From an uncultured Alphaproteobacteria bacterium (lineage in GTDB: Bacteria; Pseudomonadota; Alphaproteobacteria; UBA7985), in contig CAJQLX010000056.1 in NCBI GenBank assembly GCA_905479265.1, positions 1 through 48,157 on the forward strand: 48,157 bases of DNA, written 5' to 3'. The notes below the pieces were generated by a model that was not told the DNA's origin, did not search any database, and was given only the letters and a program-made list of their open reading frames with translations. Shown in pieces: positions 8,215 to 19,156 of the stretch (positions are counted from its first letter, which is position 1; each line of letters opens with the position of its first letter). The position numbers and the translations under genes are program-made.

Positions 8215-10071
8215 ATGTGGTCTCTCGCCCCCGCTTTGCTGCGTGCTTTCGACCCTGAAACCGCTCACCGCCTGACCATTCGTGGGCTGTCGTTGGGCCT
8301 GCATCCCCGATTTCGCGACCGCCGGGCTGAGCCTGTGGCGCGGGTGTTTGGCAAGGATCTTCCCAACCGCTTGGGACTGGCAGCAGGCTTTGATAAGGAC
8401 GCTGAGGCCGTCGCAGCGCTGGCAGCGCTTGGGTTTGGCGCTGTCGAGATTGGCTCTGTCACGCCAAAACCGCAGCCGGGCAACCCCCGCCCCCGCGTCT
8501 TCCGCCTGCCCGAAGATCAAGCGGTGATCAACCGCTACGGCTTTAACTCAGGCGGCCACGATATCGTTCGCCGCAATCTTGACCGCCTGCGCCCAAACCA
8601 GCGCCCGCCGCTGCTGGGTGTCAATTTGGGGGCCAACAAGACATCTGAGAACGTCCCTGCTGACTTTGCGCTGGGCGTGAGCAGGTTTGCCGACATCGCC
8701 GACTACTTGGTGATCAACGTGTCCAGCCCGAATACGCCGGGCTTGCGCGATCATCAGACGATCGACGCGCTGGGCCGGATCCTCGATCTGGCGTTGGACG
8801 CGCGCGCGCAGACCAGCGCGACGCCGATCATGCTCAAGATTGCGCCAGACCTCGCGGACGGCGATGTCGCGGCGATTGTGGAACTGGCGCTGGATCGCGG
8901 CATCGAAGGGCTGATTGCCACCAATACGACCATCGGTCGCCCCGACGATCTGCGCAGCACAGGGTCAGCGCGGGGCGAAAGCGGCGGTTTGTCGGGTCAG
9001 CCGTTGTTCGAGCGCGCCACCGACGTGCTCACCGCCATTCGCGAGCAGGCTGACGACCGCCTCGTGGTCTTTGGCACCGGCGGCGTCGCAACCCCTGAAC
9101 AAGCGCAGGAAAAGGTTCGGCGCGGTGCGGATGTAGTGCAGCTCTATACCGGCTTGATTTATGGCGGTCCGGCGCTGGTTAAACCGTTGATTGGTGCTGT
9201 GTCCAAACCGGCCAAGACGCACCGTGTGACCGGGCTCAATCAACTGCTGGACCAGCAAGGCTATCGCGGTTTGATCGTCGATCTTTGGGGTGTCATGCAC
9301 GACGGCAAGACCCTGTTCCCCGAGGCGGTCGAAGCGCTCCGCCGGGCGCGACAGCGGGGGGTTCAGGTGCAGTTCCTGTCCAACGCGCCCCGCCGAGCAG
9401 ACTCGATTGCTGCGTTGCTGGCCGGCATGGGTATGGCCGCAAAAGACTATGACGGCATTGTTTCCAGCGGTGAAGAAAGCTGGCAGGCGATGAAGGACCG
9501 CAGCGACCCGTTTTACGCCGCGTTGGGCCGACGCTGCTTCCATTTGGGCGCAGGCGCAAAAGACGCCAACATGCGCGAAGGCTTGGATTACGACTTTCAG
9601 GACGAAATCGCCGGTGCCGAGTGGATCCTCAACACCGGACCGGCGGCGAGTAAAGATTTGGCCGAGTGGCTGCCGCTGCTGAAAACAGCGCTAAGCGCTG
9701 GCTTGCCGATGGTCTGCGCCAATCCTGACCGTGTGGTCATGCGCGGCGATAGCCGGGAGCTGTGCGCGGGTGCTTTGGCAGAATGGTTCGAAGATCACGG
9801 CGGCACCGTCCGCTGGCACGGCAAGCCCTTTGGTTCTGTTTACCGCAGTGCGCGTACCGCCATGGGTCTGGGCCGTCACGAGGTGCTGGCCATCGGTGAC
9901 AGTTTCACCACCGACGTCGCCGGTGCGCGCGGGGCGGGGATCGATGTGTTGCTGGTGAACACAGGCATTCACCGGCGTGATCTGGATGATGACTTGATCG
10001 CTGGCGTCGATCGGCTGAGCGTAGAAAAGGGCGTGCGCCCAAGTTTCGTGGCGGATCGGTTGCAGTTTTGA
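8215..10071 (+). CDS. pyrD: dihydroorotate dehydrogenase (quinone) fused to HAD-IIA hydrolase
   Basis: A single 618-residue frame holding two enzymes. Residues 1 to about 335 are a class 2, membrane-associated dihydroorotate dehydrogenase that oxidises dihydroorotate to orotate with FMN and quinone (pyrimidine synthesis). It shows an N-terminal amphipathic helix, EIGSVTPKPQPGNP, INRYGFNSGG, and the catalytic-serine loop NVSSPNTPG near residue 170. Residues from about 350 on are a HAD class IIA phosphatase-like domain of the TIGR01459 kind: VDLWGVMHDG near residue 354, FLSNAPRR, and the late motif AIGDSFTTDVAGARGAG near 560. In that subfamily the second acid of the DxD motif is commonly tryptophan (DLW), as here. 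The usual C-terminal helix of PyrD is replaced by a short linker. No stop or frame change is visible at the junction (about 9180-9280). Confidence 0.93.
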   Translation: MWSLAPALLRAFDPETAHRLTIRGLSLGLHPRFRDRRAEPVARVFGKDLPNRLGLAAGFDKDAEAVAALAALGFGAVEIGSVTPKPQPGNPRPRVFRLPEDQAVINRYGFNSGGHDIVRRNLDRLRPNQRPPLLGVNLGANKTSENVPADFALGVSRFADIADYLVINVSSPNTPGLRDHQTIDALGRILDLALDARAQTSATPIMLKIAPDLADGDVAAIVELALDRGIEGLIATNTTIGRPDDLRSTGSARGESGGLSGQPLFERATDVLTAIREQADDRLVVFGTGGVATPEQAQEKVRRGADVVQLYTGLIYGGPALVKPLIGAVSKPAKTHRVTGLNQLLDQQGYRGLIVDLWGVMHDGKTLFPEAVEALRRARQRGVQVQFLSNAPRRADSIAALLAGMGMAAKDYDGIVSSGEESWQAMKDRSDPFYAALGRRCFHLGAGAKDANMREGLDYDFQDEIAGAEWILNTGPAASKDLAEWLPLLKTALSAGLPMVCANPDRVVMRGDSRELCAGALAEWFEDHGGTVRWHGKPFGSVYRSARTAMGLGRHEVLAIGDSFTTDVAGARGAGIDVLLVNTGIHRRDLDDDLIAGVDRLSVEKGVRPSFVADRLQF

Positions 10072-10160: not shown

Positions 10161-10250
10161 GGACTGTCGATTCATTTTAACGACAGAACCACGATTTTCA
10201 GCCCTGATTTTTGCTTTGGGGCGCGCATTTGATGTTCAGGAGCAGTGCCC

Positions 10251-12992
10251 ATGACGGCGCAGTTTAAGCCCAATTCACGCTTTGAATCCTACACGCCGAC
10301 CTTTGTTTTCGCGCTGATCATGACGGGTGCTTGGTTGGTCGCGGGGTGGTCCTTGTTTGGCTACTACGGGGGTCCGACGGCCTTTGCCAGTCTCAGTCCG
10401 GCGGAAGTCGGTCTGGTGATTTGCGGCGGTCTGTTGCCGCTGATGGCCATTTGGATATTGTGCGGCATGCTGGTTGTTGGCACACGCTTGCGCAATTCGA
10501 TGATGGCCGAGTTGAGCACGCTGCGCACCGTGAACATCATGCCCGAAGAAACCCAAGCGCACATCAAGTCGATCACGCGGGCGTTTGAGGATCGCGTGGG
10601 GCACCTGCAGGGCGTGACCAGCGGCATTCTCAGCTCGTTGGAAACCGCAACGCACCAGTTTGAACATCAAACCGATATGCTCGACGCGCTGTCGATGCGT
10701 GTTGATGAGCAGGCCACAACGATCTCGACCGCGCTGAGCATTCAAGGCAACCAGCTCACCGGCGCAGAAGGCCGGATTGATCGCATGGTGAACCGCATGA
10801 AGCATGCGATGGACGACGTGCGCGAAGCCGGTGATGGCTTCCGTGACAACCTGACCAAGCCGATCGCTGAAGTGCAGGATACGCTGGCCGAGGCCACGCA
10901 ATCGATTCACACACAGATTGACGAAATCTGGTCCCGTCTGGAGCTGCTGGACGCGGCACAGGCCGAGACCGAAGACGCAACCGCCCGGACCCGTGCCGCG
11001 CTGGAGGCGGAGTCGGAGAACTTGCGCGTGACGGCGGATGCTGCTTTGGGCAGCGTTGAGGCCATGTCCACCAAGCTCACAGGCCAGATCGACATGCTTA
11101 AGTCGGTATCCCACGACGCCAATGACGTGGCTGATCAGATGCAGAACCGCTTGGAGCAGCAGTCCAAAGCCCTGCGCCAAGCCGGTCAGGACTTGTCGGC
11201 GCACGCCGGTGAGCTGCATGAAGCCATTCAAGAGCAAGCCAGTCACCTCACCACTTTGCAAACATCGGTGGACAGCTACGGCAGCGCCATTTCTGAGGAA
11301 TTCGAGCGCAAGGTCGAGCGGCTCATGGCCTCGGCCAAAGAAGCCGCTGACATTGTGGGCGAGCACACCGCGCAAGCAACACGCAAGGTGATTGAAGAAC
11401 TTTCCGACAACGGTGACAAACTCACCGGCAACATCAGTTTTGTCTCTGAGCGGGTGGAGGAGCTGACGGAAGCGCTGACGACGGGCGCATCCGTGCTCAA
11501 GGAAACCACGCTTTCGGCCAAGGAAGCGATGAAGGACAGCGCCAAAGACGTTGCAGCGATCATGACCACCTCGACCAAGGGCGCTGAAGTGCGGTTTGTC
11601 GAGCTGGGCGATGCCTGGGCCGAAACGCTAGAAGATCAGGCCGCGCGGGTGGAAAGCCTGCAGGAAATGGCAACAGCCGCTGAGGATCAGAGCTTCAAGC
11701 GTGCCGAGGAATCCGTGATCCACTTCGCAGAACGCCTCGACCATGCGCTGCAGGAACGGTTCGAAGACGAGCACGGTGCCTTTAACACCGCACAGCGCCA
11801 GATTGATTCGGCAGCACAGCGGACCGTGAACAACTATCACCGCTTGGTGGGCAGTTTTGTCGAAGACCTGACGCAGAAGGCGGGGGCGGAGATGGAATGC
11901 CTCATGACCTGGGGTCAGGAAATCCCCCGCGCAGCCGAACACCTGCGCGAAACAGCCGCCGAGGTGGTTCATCTGATGGATGAAAAAACCAAGGCCCTGC
12001 TGGCTCGGACCAACGAAGTGCGCCACGCGACCACGGACGCATTGGCCAGCACGCAAAGCCTGTTTGACGGGATTTCCCAAAGCCCGCAGCGGCTGAATGA
12101 TTCGGTTGAGCAGCTCAAGGCGACCTCCACGGTTGCCGTTGAAGACCTGCGCACACAGACCGAAGCGCTCAACACCTTGCTGCTGGACAGCCGAAACCGC
12201 ATGGTTCGCCTGACTGAGCAGTTCCATCGCGGCGTTAATGACGATCAGGTGGACGAACGTCTGGTTCGCCTCGCAGAGGCCATTGAGTTGGGCCAGCACG
12301 CGCTGAATAACGCTGCTTCGGCCTTTACCAATAGCACCCATGAAGCCGCAGAGTCAGCGCACTCCGCAGCAGGGCGTTTGATGGATACATCCCGGCTTGT
12401 GGGCGATCAGGTGCAGATGTTGCGCGACATGACCACCAATACGGAAAGTGCGAGCAACTTGCGCCGCGTGACCGATCAAGCGCAGGAGTTGCGAGCGATT
12501 CTCGATCAGATCGGCGTGGCAGCGGAAAACCACCAGCTCAAGCTGGTGCAGGTGACTGAAGAAGCCCGCACGCAGTCCGAACGGCTGCTGGAAACCGTCA
12601 AGTCTTCGGAGCGCGAAGCGTTTTTGAACGAAGCGTCATCCATGGTCGAAGCCTTGCATCAGTCCGCCATCGACGTGGATACGATTTTGGACGGCAACTT
12701 GCCCAGTGACGTGATCATGGCGATTGATGCTGGCGATCGCGGGGTCTCGGTCCGCCGCCTGCTCAGCCGCTATACACCGACCGGCGCCGCAGCCATGGCG
12801 GATCTCTATGCCCGCGACCGTGCCTTTACCGAGCGCGTGGACCGGTATTTGGAAACTTTCGACAGTTTGCTGGCACAGGCCAACCGGGTCGATAAGTCCA
12901 AACTGCTCCACACCACGTTCCTGACCGCTGATATCGGCAAGCTCTACGTCTTCCTCGCCCGGTCAATCGGGGTCATGCAAGCCGCAGAATAG
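10251..12992 (+). CDS. membrane-anchored long coiled-coil protein (possible polar scaffold)
   Basis: A 913-residue protein of unknown function. Two membrane helices near the N-terminus (about residues 18-42 and 54-78) are followed by a short cytoplasmic stretch and about 650 residues of alanine-, glutamate- and glutamine-rich heptad-like coiled coil. A more globular C-terminal region of about 120 residues follows (from LPSDVIMAIDAGDRG to the end). The overall layout resembles TipN, the Caulobacter birth-scar polarity protein, but this is resemblance of architecture only; homology is not shown. The open frame begins at GTG 10245, but AGGAG at 10238-10242 is spaced correctly for ATG 10251, not for the GTG. 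The gene has its own upstream region and is followed by a converging gene with a hairpin terminator between. Annotation tools may call it a chemotaxis, ATPase or apolipoprotein-like protein because of the coiled coil. Confidence 0.85.
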   Translation: MTAQFKPNSRFESYTPTFVFALIMTGAWLVAGWSLFGYYGGPTAFASLSPAEVGLVICGGLLPLMAIWILCGMLVVGTRLRNSMMAELSTLRTVNIMPEETQAHIKSITRAFEDRVGHLQGVTSGILSSLETATHQFEHQTDMLDALSMRVDEQATTISTALSIQGNQLTGAEGRIDRMVNRMKHAMDDVREAGDGFRDNLTKPIAEVQDTLAEATQSIHTQIDEIWSRLELLDAAQAETEDATARTRAALEAESENLRVTADAALGSVEAMSTKLTGQIDMLKSVSHDANDVADQMQNRLEQQSKALRQAGQDLSAHAGELHEAIQEQASHLTTLQTSVDSYGSAISEEFERKVERLMASAKEAADIVGEHTAQATRKVIEELSDNGDKLTGNISFVSERVEELTEALTTGASVLKETTLSAKEAMKDSAKDVAAIMTTSTKGAEVRFVELGDAWAETLEDQAARVESLQEMATAAEDQSFKRAEESVIHFAERLDHALQERFEDEHGAFNTAQRQIDSAAQRTVNNYHRLVGSFVEDLTQKAGAEMECLMTWGQEIPRAAEHLRETAAEVVHLMDEKTKALLARTNEVRHATTDALASTQSLFDGISQSPQRLNDSVEQLKATSTVAVEDLRTQTEALNTLLLDSRNRMVRLTEQFHRGVNDDQVDERLVRLAEAIELGQHALNNAASAFTNSTHEAAESAHSAAGRLMDTSRLVGDQVQMLRDMTTNTESASNLRRVTDQAQELRAILDQIGVAAENHQLKLVQVTEEARTQSERLLETVKSSEREAFLNEASSMVEALHQSAIDVDTILDGNLPSDVIMAIDAGDRGVSVRRLLSRYTPTGAAAMADLYARDRAFTERVDRYLETFDSLLAQANRVDKSKLLHTTFLTADIGKLYVFLARSIGVMQAAE

Positions 12993-13022: not shown

Positions 13023-13059
13023 AAAAAAGCCAGCACCTGATGTTCATCAGGGCTGGCTT
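13023..13059 (-). terminator. intrinsic terminator of the 13.1 kb secreted-protein gene
   Basis: A near-perfect hairpin: AAGCCAGC (13027-13034) pairs with GCTGGCTT (13052-13059) and CCTGATG (13036-13042) with CATCAGG (13045-13051), with one bulged A and a two-base loop. On the minus strand it is followed by six T residues (13023-13028). It lies between converging genes and may also slow plus-strand transcription, though the T run is only on the minus side. Confidence 0.85.
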
Positions 13060-13082
13060 CGTTTGTGTCGTGTCCCAAGACT

Positions 13083-13724
13083 CTAGTTCTCGGACGGATA
13101 GGCCGTTTCTAGAAAGTGGGAGGCCGACCCAACCGGCGCGTAAACCGCTGGGAACTGCTCCGCCTCAAAAGGCTGACTGTCGTATCCGGTTGGTGCCGTC
13201 GATTGAACGCCATAGCCGGGCAGGTCGGATGTGTCTTTCACCACCACCACGCGCGGCTCCCCCCCTGAGTACCAAACCGGCATACCGTCCGCGTTGACGA
13301 ATGATCCATCGGGCTGAACAAAAGTGCGTCCGGCTGATGCGCTATTCTGGGTCTGATAGGACAGGGTTTCATACTGACCCATGGGGACAGCGACCGCTGG
13401 CACGTTTGGTATCTGCACCGCAGCGTTTATGATCGGTTGCGCGTAAGACACCGGTTCGGCGTAAGGGATTGGCGCGGCGTAGGTCACGTTCTGCCGGGGA
13501 TCAACCACCTGCGACTTGACGTAATAGGACGCATCATTGGCGAGGATCGTGTGCCCCTGACCGTTGGCCGAATAGGACACGTACGAGCCCGCAGCCACGG
13601 GCTGATAACCCGTTTTGCTGTAAAGAGATGGTTGCATGTAAGCGGTCTGAGCCTGCACTGAGCTGACCGCAAAGACCCCGGCTAAAAACGCCGCGGGGAT
13701 CATCAAATATTGAAAGTACCGCAT
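13083..13724 (-). CDS. secreted protein with YSKTGY motif, unknown function (paralogue A)
   Basis: A 213-residue protein that I do not recognise. A clear Sec signal peptide (hydrophobic residues 7-23, likely cut after SVQA near residue 26) exports it. The mature N-terminus carries LYSKTGYQP followed about 12 residues later by YSANGQGH. The rest is rich in proline, tyrosine, valine and glutamine with PYAEPVSYAQP-like repeats, and suggests an extended, surface-exposed or cell-wall-like protein. The neighbouring gene at 13990-14520 shares the YSKTGY and YSxNGxxH elements, so the two are paralogues. An AT-rich TATATT (13754-13749) lies about 25 bases upstream, and an inverted repeat at 13824-13844. 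No catalytic motif or cysteine pair is seen. Confidence 0.75.
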   Translation of the reverse strand: MRYFQYLMIPAAFLAGVFAVSSVQAQTAYMQPSLYSKTGYQPVAAGSYVSYSANGQGHTILANDASYYVKSQVVDPRQNVTYAAPIPYAEPVSYAQPIINAAVQIPNVPAVAVPMGQYETLSYQTQNSASAGRTFVQPDGSFVNADGMPVWYSGGEPRVVVVKDTSDLPGYGVQSTAPTGYDSQPFEAEQFPAVYAPVGSASHFLETAYPSEN

Positions 13725-13823
13725 GAGATTCTGCTTTTTGCTTTTCCAAATATAATGTCTCCGCCACGCGACTGATTATGAAACAGTTCGCGCAACGCAG
13801 GGTATGGATCTGCAACCAAGGGG

Positions 13824-13844
13824 CCAGTTAGCGGTAAAAACTGG
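13824..13844. promoter_or_regulatory. inverted repeat CCAGTT-N9-AACTGG upstream of paralogue A
   Basis: CCAGTT (13824-13829) and AACTGG (13839-13844) form an operator-like inverted repeat about 100 bases upstream of the secreted-protein start. The same arms, with eight bases between, occur upstream of mucR at 36250-36269. No regulator is proven. Confidence 0.35.
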
Positions 13845-13863
13845 TTAAGGCGTAGAAAGCAGC

Positions 13864-13965
13864 ATTATTCCGACCCAGCGGTTGAGTTGCGGGCAAAAAG
13901 CGGGAAATTTGGTCGCTTAATGCTTATCCCGCTTTCAAATCGTCAACGGGCCGAGTCGGAATAAT
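13864..13965. repeat. nested inverted repeat between the two secreted-protein genes
   Basis: The outer arms ATTATTCCGAC (13864-13874) and GTCGGAATAAT (13955-13965) are perfect 11-base complements. Inside, GTTGA (13881-13885) pairs with TCAAC (13943-13947) and AAAGCGGGA (13897-13905) with TCCCGCTTT (13927-13935). The whole 102-base unit can fold into one long branched hairpin on either strand. It may be a structured RNA, an elaborate terminator or a remnant palindromic element. Confidence 0.65.
13895..13935 (-). terminator. putative terminator of paralogue B
   Basis: On the minus strand AAAGCGGGA and TCCCGCTTT form a 9-pair stem with a 21-base loop and run into five T residues (13895-13899). 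It lies about 55 bases after the stop of the 13990-14520 gene. The loop is longer than usual for an intrinsic terminator. Confidence 0.5.
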
Positions 13966-13989
13966 TTCAAAGCAAGTCGCAGGTTGCGC

Positions 13990-14520
13990 TTACTGCACGT
14001 ACTGACCGGACTGGGTCTGGAAGTATTGCTGACCCTGAACGATTTGCTGCTGTGCGGGGTAACCGGACGGGGCAGGGGCGGTTGCGTACTGCTGCTGCTG
14101 AACCGCGCCATCGACGCCTTTGACAACAGGCAGAACGGCCGCTTCGTAGACCACAGGCTTTTCCGTCTGAATGATCTGCTGCTGATACTGGACCGGCACT
14201 TGCTGCACGGGCATTTGCACTTGCTGGTACTGCACTTGGCCCGGAATGACCTGCTGGTGGTACGTCACCGGACCGGGCGCATAGATTGGAATGCGCGCTG
14301 CTTTGTTATAGAGCGCTGGCGCGCCGCCAGTGGCTTCCATGGTCGGCATGTAGTGGGTGTTGCCGTTGACAGAATAGGCCACCGCTTGCTGCGGATTCAT
14401 CGCCATTTGCGGCGCATAGCCCGTTTTGCTGTAAACGAGGTGTTGGCCCGGTACTTGTGCGCTTGCGGAGGAGGCGAGCAACAGTGCGCTGAGGCCAGCA
14501 ATTTTGAGAAGTCGAGACAT
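13990..14520 (-). CDS. secreted glutamine-rich protein with YSKTGY motif (paralogue B)
   Basis: A 176-residue protein of unknown function. A signal peptide (hydrophobic residues 5-19, likely cut after SASA at residue 21) is followed by VYSKTGYAP at about residues 29-37 and YSVNGNTH near 50, matching the same elements in the gene at 13083-13724. The second half is very rich in glutamine, valine, proline and tyrosine (QYQQVQMPVQQVPVQYQQQ), which suggests a flexible, perhaps aggregating or surface-coating chain. There are no cysteines. The ATG at 14520 has AGGA seven bases upstream on the minus strand. It lies downstream of gpsA, separated by a possible terminator, so it is probably transcribed alone or with paralogue A. 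Confidence 0.75.
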   Translation of the reverse strand: MSRLLKIAGLSALLLASSASAQVPGQHLVYSKTGYAPQMAMNPQQAVAYSVNGNTHYMPTMEATGGAPALYNKAARIPIYAPGPVTYHQQVIPGQVQYQQVQMPVQQVPVQYQQQIIQTEKPVVYEAAVLPVVKGVDGAVQQQQYATAPAPSGYPAQQQIVQGQQYFQTQSGQYVQ

Positions 14521-14650
14521 CGGCTTTTCCTATGGAGTGATACAGACTGCGAAAGTTCGTGTGCCTCTACTCCGCAAGCGCGATACCAAATCAGTTTTCA
14601 CTATTTTTGCGCTATTACCGCACTAGATCGCCTTAACTGCCGCCAATGAA

Positions 14651-14682
14651 CGCATAAAAAAACGCACCCCCAACGTTATGCG
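14651..14682 (-). terminator. possible weak terminator of gpsA
   Basis: CGCATAA (14651-14657) and TTATGCG (14676-14682) are perfect complements. On the minus strand a short CGCA/TGCG stem precedes seven T residues. The stem adjoining the T run is short, so strength is doubtful. Confidence 0.35.
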
Positions 14683-14693
14683 TCACCAATTTA

Positions 14694-15677
14694 TTATCCG
14701 ACGTCGCTTGCGTGGCTGCGTGCCAGCAGCTCGTTGAGCAGCTGTTGCGGCGTGATCCGCTCAGAAACCAAGGCGGCAACCGCGCTCACTATGGGCAAAT
14801 CGAGTGCTTGTGTGCGGTTGGCAGCGACAACGCTTTGGGCTGCTCTTACGCCCTCGACCGTGGTGCCTTGCGCCAGTACAGCGCTTGCGCGTGCGCCCTG
14901 ACCGAGTTCAAAGCCAAAGCGGTGGTTGCGCGATTGCCGGTCTTGGCACGTGAGCGCAAGGTCGCCAATGCCGGCCAAGCCCGCAGCGGTGCGCGGATCT
15001 CCGTCGTAAGCCCGGATCACGCGTTCGATCTCACGCAGGCCGCGTGTCATCAGTGCCGATCGCGCGCTGGCGCCCAATCTCATGCCGTCTGCGCAGCCAC
15101 AGGCGATGGCGATAACGTTTTTCAAAGCGCCGCACACTTGTACCCCTCGGGGATCGTCGCTGTGATAGAGGCGCAGCAGAGGGGTGCTCAGCGTGCTTAG
15201 TAGCGGGTCGGCGTCGCCTGTTGTTGCCAAGGTCAGGGCCGTTGGCCGGTTGGCGAACAAATCCGCAGCAAAGGATGGACCGCTCAAAACAGCCAACCGG
15301 GGCTCCCCCATCAACGCTTCACTCAGCAAGGCTCCCTGTTCATCGGCAAAGCCTTTCGATGCGGTGACGATGGCACAGTTGGGGTGCAGGGAGGGGGCTA
15401 AATTCTGGAAAACGGCAGTCTGAGCTTGGGCTTTTACAGCCAGCACCACGATGTCGGCGGGACTGGTTGCCTGAAAGTGGTCCAGCTGTCCGCCGTTTAC
15501 ACCCGTCAGGACGGGACAGTCCGGCACGGCGGTATTGATCCCGTGGTGGCTCAGTGCCTCGGCCTGCGCAGCCTGACGACACCACAGGCGGACGGCGAGA
15601 CCGCTTTGAAGCCAAACATGGGCCAAAGCTGAGCCAAAGGCACCGGCGCCAATAATGTGGATGGTCGAAGCGCTCAT
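14694..15677 (-). CDS. gpsA: glycerol-3-phosphate dehydrogenase [NAD(P)+]
   Basis: A 327-residue cytoplasmic enzyme that reduces dihydroxyacetone phosphate to sn-glycerol 3-phosphate, the backbone of phospholipids. The Rossmann dinucleotide motif IIGAGAFGSALA lies at residues 8-19. SGPSFA near residue 137, the catalytic-lysine stretch GALKNVIAIACG near 185, and SRNHRFGFELG near 250 are family hallmarks. Length is normal. In many alphaproteobacteria gpsA follows tsaD, but here it stands alone, divergent from an ABC exporter, with a 105-base shared upstream region. Confidence 0.95.
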   Translation of the reverse strand: MSASTIHIIGAGAFGSALAHVWLQSGLAVRLWCRQAAQAEALSHHGINTAVPDCPVLTGVNGGQLDHFQATSPADIVVLAVKAQAQTAVFQNLAPSLHPNCAIVTASKGFADEQGALLSEALMGEPRLAVLSGPSFAADLFANRPTALTLATTGDADPLLSTLSTPLLRLYHSDDPRGVQVCGALKNVIAIACGCADGMRLGASARSALMTRGLREIERVIRAYDGDPRTAAGLAGIGDLALTCQDRQSRNHRFGFELGQGARASAVLAQGTTVEGVRAAQSVVAANRTQALDLPIVSAVAALVSERITPQQLLNELLARSHASDVG

Positions 15678-18074: not shown

Positions 18075-18088
18075 TCAAGGCTACGGCG

Positions 18089-19156
18089 TCAAGCCGGAAG
18101 TTGATTGAGTGCCCACTGGGCACTCTCAGCCACGACAGGGTTTTCTGAGCGTGCGAGTTGCTGAAGTGGCTCGCGCGCTTTTTCTTGCCCGGAATTTCCC
18201 AAACAGATGGCCAGATTGCGCAAGAATCGCTCAATCCCAATGCGCTTGACCGGTGAGCCGGAAAACGCAGCGCGGAAAGCGGCATCGTCGAACGACGTGA
18301 AGTCGAGCAAGCGCGCTTGATTGACCACGTCACGGGGCTTGAATCCGGCCTCAGCGGTCGCTTTGGCAAATTTGTTCCACGGACACACCGCCAAACAGTC
18401 ATCGCAGCCATAGATCCGGTTTCCCATCGCCTTGCGGAATTCGACCGGAATGGCGCCGCGGTGCTCGATGCTCAGGTAGGCCAGACAGCGCGTGGCGTCG
18501 AGCGTGTAGGGCGCGGGAATGGCTTGGGTTGGGCAGATGTCGATGCAGCGGGTGCAACTGCCGCACTGATCCGGCGTCGGGTCGTCCGTGGGCAACTCGA
18601 TGCTGAGGTAAATCACGCCCAGAAAAAGCCACGAGCCGAATTGGGGTGATACCAAATTGCTGTGCTTGCCCTGCCAGCCCACGGCTGTTTGCGCCGCCAA
18701 CGCCTTTTCGGGGACGGGGGCTGTGTCCACAAAGACCTTCAGCGCTTGGCCGTTGGTCTGTTCCGCGATCCACCGGCCCAGCCGCTTCAGGCGCTTCTTG
18801 AGAATGTCGTGGTAATCGCGGTTCTCTGCGTACACAGAAAAGTTGGCACGCTCAGGCTCTTCTAACCGGTCGAGGGGATTGTCTTCGGGGCCATAATTCA
18901 GGCCAACCACAACAACCGACCGGGCTTCACGCCACAGGGCCTGGGGGTCTGAGCGCTGCTCCAGCCGGTTCTCCATCCAATCCATCGTCCCGTGCTGCCC
19001 TTGGGCCACAAAGGACTGGTAACGCTGTTGATTGCGTTCGGGGATGCTGGCCGGACCAAAGCCGCACGCGTCAAAGCCCAAGGCCAGGGCCTGTGCGCGG
19101 ATATCATCGCGCAGCGCCGCTTGGGGGTCAGAGGGGGTCGATGTCGCCTCGGGCAT
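18089..19156 (-). CDS. queG: epoxyqueuosine reductase
   Basis: A 355-residue cobalamin-dependent enzyme that reduces epoxyqueuosine in tRNA to queuosine, the last step of the pathway. Two 4Fe-4S ferredoxin motifs are present: [12 protein letters not shown] and CDDCLAVCP, together with the N-terminal [11 protein letters not shown] region. Its last ~50 residues ([12 protein letters not shown] and on) resemble the HEAT-like tail of QueG. ATG 19156 is preferred over the longer frame to 19189; it overlaps the end of tgt by 29 bases. It is the distal gene of the queuosine cluster. Confidence 0.94.

Follow-up and report, generated by a model that had tools for sequence, protein, structure and literature searches.

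Two genes that lie side by side in the window (the whole 48,157-nucleotide stretch of alphaproteobacterial DNA analysed here) raise the question of what kind of proteins they encode and what holds them together. They are called A and B below. A sequence-only reading had described their products as adjoining, signal-peptide-bearing, cysteine-free proteins of a secreted and uncharacterized family, in which a YSKTGY and a YSxNGxxH motif are followed by a Pro/Tyr/Gln-rich chain. Two features had been missed by that reading: the pair occurs in a single clade, sister genomes having an empty site, and a covarying hairpin lies between the two genes. The locus is best explained as a clade-restricted pair of paralogous, exported, low-complexity proteins with an intercistronic RNA hairpin that would tune their transcript. 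A probability of roughly 0.4 was given to this explanation. The coordinates of the features are collected in Table 1.

Table 1. Features of the A/B locus and its borders (positions are those of the window; an empty cell means that no value applies).
Feature	Position	Strand	Description
Left neighbour, coiled-coil protein	10245..12992	+	Left edge of the present/absent segment
Terminator-like hairpin after A	13027..13061		T-run on the minus strand; also 3' of the coiled-coil gene
Gene A	13083..13724	-	213 aa, exported; same N-terminal module as B; C-terminal GYG...PFxAxxFPxV element
Shared module, A residues 35-62	13539..13622	-	Protein and profile alignments
Conserved covarying hairpin, 100 nt	13865..13964	drawn on the B-to-A strand	B-A spacer
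Gene B	13990..14520	-	176 aa, exported, Gln/Tyr/Pro-rich; N-terminal YSKTGY...YSVNG module; conserved tail block PVVYEAAVLPVVK
Shared module, B residues 30-59	14343..14433	-	Protein and profile alignments
gpsA-B spacer	14521..14693	-	Blocks kept in three genomes: inverted repeat 3' of gpsA, TTTGGTATCG-N-GCTTGCGG, AGGAAAAG
Right neighbour, gpsA, NAD-dependent glycerol-3-phosphate dehydrogenase	14694..15677	-	Right edge of the present/absent segment

The YSKTGY motif occupies residues 35-40 of A and residues 30-35 of B, 8-9 residues into the predicted mature chain of both proteins. The second motif follows after a gap of 10 residues in A (YSANGQGH, residues 51-58) and of 13 residues in B (YSVNGNTH, residues 49-56). 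Both N-termini begin with a short basic stretch, which leads into a hydrophobic core and then into an A/V-x-A cleavage pattern followed by Gln. From this AxA/VxA-Q pattern, the mature N-terminus was predicted at residue 26 for A and at residue 22 for B. Signal peptides and cleavage points were called by heuristics (hydrophobic core plus cleavage pattern), and signal-peptide-like N-termini were recognized in this way in all six proteins examined. Neither A nor B contains a single cysteine. Tyrosine and proline account for 9% and 10% of the residues, respectively, in both proteins, and the glutamine content is 21% in B and 8% in A. The cysteine-free and Pro/Tyr/Gln-rich character attributed to the two proteins was confirmed, A being the less Gln-rich of the two, and their secretion is supported.

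A and B are real genes under codon-level purifying selection. Between the genome of the window (G000) and G001, substitutions in B were distributed as 44/38/94 over the three codon positions; the corresponding figures for A were 77/51/97. In the four orthologue pairs compared, dN/dS was about 0.2-0.3 throughout and the changes were concentrated at third positions. For the G000-G001 pair, dN/dS was about 0.1 in gpsA and about 0.05 in the coiled-coil protein, which served as controls. A and B thus evolve faster than their neighbours yet are constrained. A long antisense frame over B was rejected as a gene on the codon evidence.

The locus is ordered gpsA, B, hairpin, A and terminator-like hairpin; the last of these was not listed by a consensus terminator scan. 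In the spacer between gpsA and B, the block AGGAAAAG precedes the start codon of B, and the conserved blocks of this spacer may be functional. A promoter shared genome-wide was considered for the conserved block upstream of B and was rejected, since only one exact place was found and matches with 2-3 mismatches (12 in total, vs 8 in the control) were little above the control. Directly 3' of gpsA, an inverted repeat CGCATAA...TTATGCG (14651-14682) was observed in the three pair-bearing genomes, with a variable spacer around it; its fold was no better than those of shuffles.

The same gene order, namely DHODH-HAD, coiled-coil protein, A, B, gpsA and ABC transporter, was found in G000, G001 and G003. 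In two other genomes of the genus, G002 and G005, these neighbours are arranged and oriented alike, but A and B are lacking. In G005, the stop codons of the coiled-coil gene and gpsA are 54 bp apart. In G002, the spacing is 71 when counted from an apparent frame-shifted stop (assembly) and 54 when counted from the stop matching the other genomes. A, B and the hairpin are together absent from these two sister genomes, and they were gained or lost together. The coiled-coil protein is 86-89% identical among the three pair-bearing genomes and 60-71% identical to its counterparts in the two genomes without the pair, which are 88% identical to each other. The pair-bearing genomes are therefore closer to each other than to G002 and G005, and the presence of the pair is a clade character. 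No coiled-coil gene, A or B was found at the four gpsA loci of G006-G009, genomes from two further families of the order; the genes around gpsA differ there, so that gain and loss are not told apart by these genomes. G004 (63% complete, no gpsA found) was left out of the presence/absence scoring.

Two observations were made on the genes to the left of the pair. The coiled-coil protein is 915 aa long and has N-terminal hydrophobic segments; its identity across five genomes of the genus is 60-89% and its Pfam matches are all below the cut-off. Upstream of it, a single 618-aa frame (8215-10071, + strand) apparently fuses a dihydroorotate dehydrogenase to a HAD-type hydrolase (Pfam DHO_dh plus Hydrolase_6/Hydrolase_like), and homologues of 637 aa occupy the same place in G002 and G005.

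Long inverted arms were detected by a repeat search in the B-A spacer of all three pair-bearing genomes. Each of them has a single site matching the pattern TTATTCCGAC-N(60-90)-GTCGGAATAA, and the eight other genomes of the order have none. In the three genomes, the hairpin starts 25, 77 and 64 nt after the stop codon of B and ends about 140-180 nt before A, the start codon of A having been chosen in G001 and G003. The B-to-A strand folds with energies of -44.7, -41.9 and -49.3 kcal/mol; relative to dinucleotide shuffles, the z-scores are -6.5, -4.5 and -6.7. When fold energy was corrected for GC content, the hairpin ranked third of 4806 window-strands (111 nt, whole window). On the other (+) strand, the z-scores are -3.5, -3.7 and -6.3 and the energy is lower in two of the three genomes, which leaves the RNA sense of the hairpin unsettled. 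The strongest GC-corrected local fold of the window lies elsewhere, at 18081-18191 on the + strand, directly after the gene for ribosomal protein L28 (17784-18074), and is probably a terminator.

Of the 34 base pairs of the hairpin, 13 were changed on both sides with pairing kept; shuffles gave 5.8, and none of 500 reached the observed number. The share of paired alignment cells was 89%, compared with 79% for shuffles and 30-45% after sliding the partners; this alignment has three rows and the consensus structure was derived from the same sequences, which favours the unslid version. The inner stems covary and the 10 outer pairs are all unchanged in the three genomes. Of the 11 genomes of the order, a covariance model built on the three sequences found the hairpin in 3, the same from which it had been built. 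With stricter filters, it found the hairpin in one of 385 genomes of the class, G000 itself. Rfam, searched with E values up to 1, gave no match for it. No T-run follows the hairpin, unlike the terminator-like hairpin after A; for this reason, and since no site on the minus strand was listed by the terminator scan, an intrinsic terminator was rejected. Nor is it a small mobile element in several copies, as the pattern and the covariance model both point to a single site in each genome. An inversion of the hairpin inside was not supported, the sequences aligning better in the same orientation in all three pairs of genomes. The hairpin is a more interesting part of the locus than the proteins, which are ordinary orphans.

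The hairpin could also be a DNA element, either a recombination or integration site or two spaced operator half-sites bound by a regulator, and B, hairpin and A could have been acquired as a cassette. The invariance of the outer arms extends to their sequence (10/10 pairs in three genomes), as for a recognized site; both strands fold well, and the segment occurs or is missing as a unit, with its neighbours unchanged. No integrase or transposase was found beside A and B, however, and the element has a single place per genome and no Rfam match. The G+C content of A and B resembles that of their neighbours, and covariation of the inner stems would be unneeded by simple operator half-sites. attC integron sites end in RYYYAAC/GTTRRRY; an attC site was rejected here, since the arms TTATTCCGAC and GTCGGAATAA are without these ends. 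A DNA element is considered unlikely, though less so than convergence of the motif or processing of the proteins into peptides.

No Pfam match above the cut-off was obtained for A or B; searches of NCBIfam, PHROGs and PADLOC gave no match, and those of solved structures gave no credible one. A strong match to a characterized family, the outcome that the sequence-only reading had named as speaking against it, was found for neither protein, and no paper containing YSKTGY was found in a literature search. Two weak matches were taken as chance: a beta-xylanase matched by the B profile among the solved structures (E 0.14), and Attacin_N (Pfam PF03768), matched by residues 14-57 of A (E 0.11) with a score of 13.0 against a cut-off of 23.9 bits and overlapping the signal peptide.

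Among the 61 genomes nearest that of the window, its own included, matches to B were found in three and matches to A in two. With the B profile, B genes were found in 3 of the 11 genomes of the order, all in the genus of the window; a further match, on contig 17 of G003, was rejected as a sugar-binding protein with a signal peptide like that of B. Among 385 genomes of the class, the module profile (E up to 0.01) detected G000 alone, apart from a 21-position fragment match within a frame of 31 aa; in the phylum (398 genomes), it detected G000, the same fragment and one other short fragment. Six more module matches in the order (E up to 10, best E 0.3) were taken as chance. Searches of viral contigs, plasmids and phages gave no match. 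Two loci were found in a named genome collection, PAHJ01000147.1 (Geminicoccus sp. MED756 MAG) and PAFB01000154.1 (Rhodospirillaceae bacterium MED834), which may be the loci of G001 and G003. The organism of the window would be related to these MAGs, and their isolate names may point to a marine origin. The family is thus uncharacterized, as had been proposed, and its relatives lie within one genus. It is taxonomically restricted, with no relatives outside the clade in the genomes searched and with selection acting on it as protein. The A/B pair is new yet ordinary in kind, a clade-restricted exported orphan family. Like orphan secreted proteins of other bacteria, A and B are short, of low complexity, exported, clade-bound and under selection; they differ from them in being two tandem members that have a common module and lie on either side of a conserved hairpin.

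From composition, it could be guessed that A and B are extracellular matrix or adhesive proteins, possibly fibre-forming. Export signals, the absence of cysteine and disordered chains rich in Tyr, Gln and Pro would suit such proteins. Curli and other functional amyloid subunits are exported, contain Gln and Tyr and are cysteine-free, and A and B resemble them in these three respects. Unlike curli subunits, A and B have no curlin repeats according to Pfam (whose sole match was Attacin_N for A, with none for B), and no curli-type genes were identified adjoining the pair. Known adhesins, curli repeats, anchors and peptide families were not matched by A or B. Beside the two genes, no processing protease, transporter, immunity gene, export partner or assembly partner was identified, and composition alone is weak evidence. 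Proteins of this type are therefore regarded as a doubtful assignment, which is nevertheless compatible with the best explanation, as the latter overlaps with it and does not fix where in the envelope the proteins lie.

The kinship of A and B was established by several comparisons. BLASTP of A vs B gave an E value of 8e-4, and only 1 of 5000 double shuffles scored as high in local alignment as the mature chains. The profiles of the A and B orthologues (three sequences each) matched each other with an hhalign probability of 94 (E 1.2e-7) over 32 columns and nowhere else. These BLASTP, hhalign and shuffle results rule out that the shared motif is due wholly to chance or composition, and the translations bore out the report of adjoining proteins with YSKTGY and YSxNGxxH. 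The tails without the module are weakly alike (score equalled in 45 of 2000 shuffles), so that the relation is one of the N-terminal module. A and B share an N-terminal module of about 32 residues on different tails. Most simply, they would be tandem paralogues produced by a tandem duplication, with tails that have since diverged.

The B orthologues read YSKTGY, YSKTGY and YNKAGY at the first motif, and VAYSVNG is found in all three genomes. The exact motif is present in A in one of the three genomes: the A orthologue of G001 has the degenerate form YAKPGW / FTNYGQRY, and that of G003, which is truncated and was read from the locus, is without the motif segment. The motif is stable in B, where all three genomes keep it closely, and in A its exact form is not fixed. 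At the DNA level, the YSKTGY stretch of A (13600-13624) and that of B (14411-14435) share 88% identity over 25 bases. These codons are near-identical in G000, yet synonymous sites between orthologues are strongly diverged, and local gene conversion at this stretch is possible. Judged by eye, the module stretch of A in G000 is about as near to B as to its own orthologue; with three genomes, retention and gene conversion are not separable there.

Convergence of unrelated Tyr/Pro-rich secreted proteins, followed by local gene conversion at YSKTGY in G000, would account for the barely similar tails, for the loss of the motif from A in G001 and G003 and for the likeness of the YSKTGY codons against the divergence of the orthologues. 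It is nevertheless quite improbable, since the module profiles match with a probability of 94, the degenerate A of G001 included, since A and B adjoin on one strand and since in each of them the signal peptide is followed by YxKxGYxP and then by VxYSxNG.

The best-conserved part of B is PVVYEAAVLPVVK, within which a single tail block of 12 columns is invariant (12/12) in the three genomes, the tail around it being variable. The best-conserved part of A lies at the C-terminus, in the element GYG...PF-x-A-x-x-FP-x-V. That A and B are precursors of secreted peptides (signals or antimicrobials), from which such conserved blocks, e.g. PVVYEAAVLPVVK in B, would be released with the low-complexity parts as spacers, agrees with these two constant elements but is the least probable reading, as no processing protease, transporter or immunity gene was identified adjoining the pair, no peptide family was matched and the common module is N-terminal, outside the B block.

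For the clade-restricted pair with an intercistronic RNA hairpin, a mechanism can be proposed. The module Y-S-K-T-G-Y ... V-x-Y-S-x-N-G-x-x-H may form a small beta-hairpin with an Asn-Gly turn: two strands are predicted at the equivalent YSxNG site in B (46-51/54-59) and in A (48-53/56-61), in structure models whose confidence is very low (mean pLDDT 41 and 36), so that the beta-hairpin is a hint only. The module would dock A and B on the same envelope partner. The disordered Pro/Tyr/Gln tails would serve as spacers or coat the surface, and each carries a conserved short element of its own. The module is eroding in A (degenerate in G001 and gone in G003), which speaks against a strict docking function there. 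B and A would be read as one transcript, in which the 100-nt hairpin may set the relative amounts of B and A by blocking or directing RNases and would thus protect or expose one of the two messages.

This role is proposed by analogy. In the Rhodobacter puf operon, an intercistronic hairpin reportedly sets relative amounts by blocking or directing RNases. The B-A element resembles it: in both cases, two alphaproteobacterial genes on one strand are separated by a stable hairpin, which is conserved in the B-A spacer. The B-A element differs from the puf hairpin in being one 100-nt hairpin with invariant outer arms, and no sequence relation between the two is claimed.

The hairpin may tentatively be regarded as a new structured RNA element of a new exported family, which would set the ratio of two paralogous envelope proteins post-transcriptionally. 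One branch carries the intact locus and its sister branch an empty site flanked by the same genes, which makes the pair a small, clearly bounded case of gene novelty. Because the locus is present or absent between the same neighbours, its gain or loss is datable with a few more genomes, and because the hairpin covaries, the regulatory hypothesis is testable without knowing the function of A and B.
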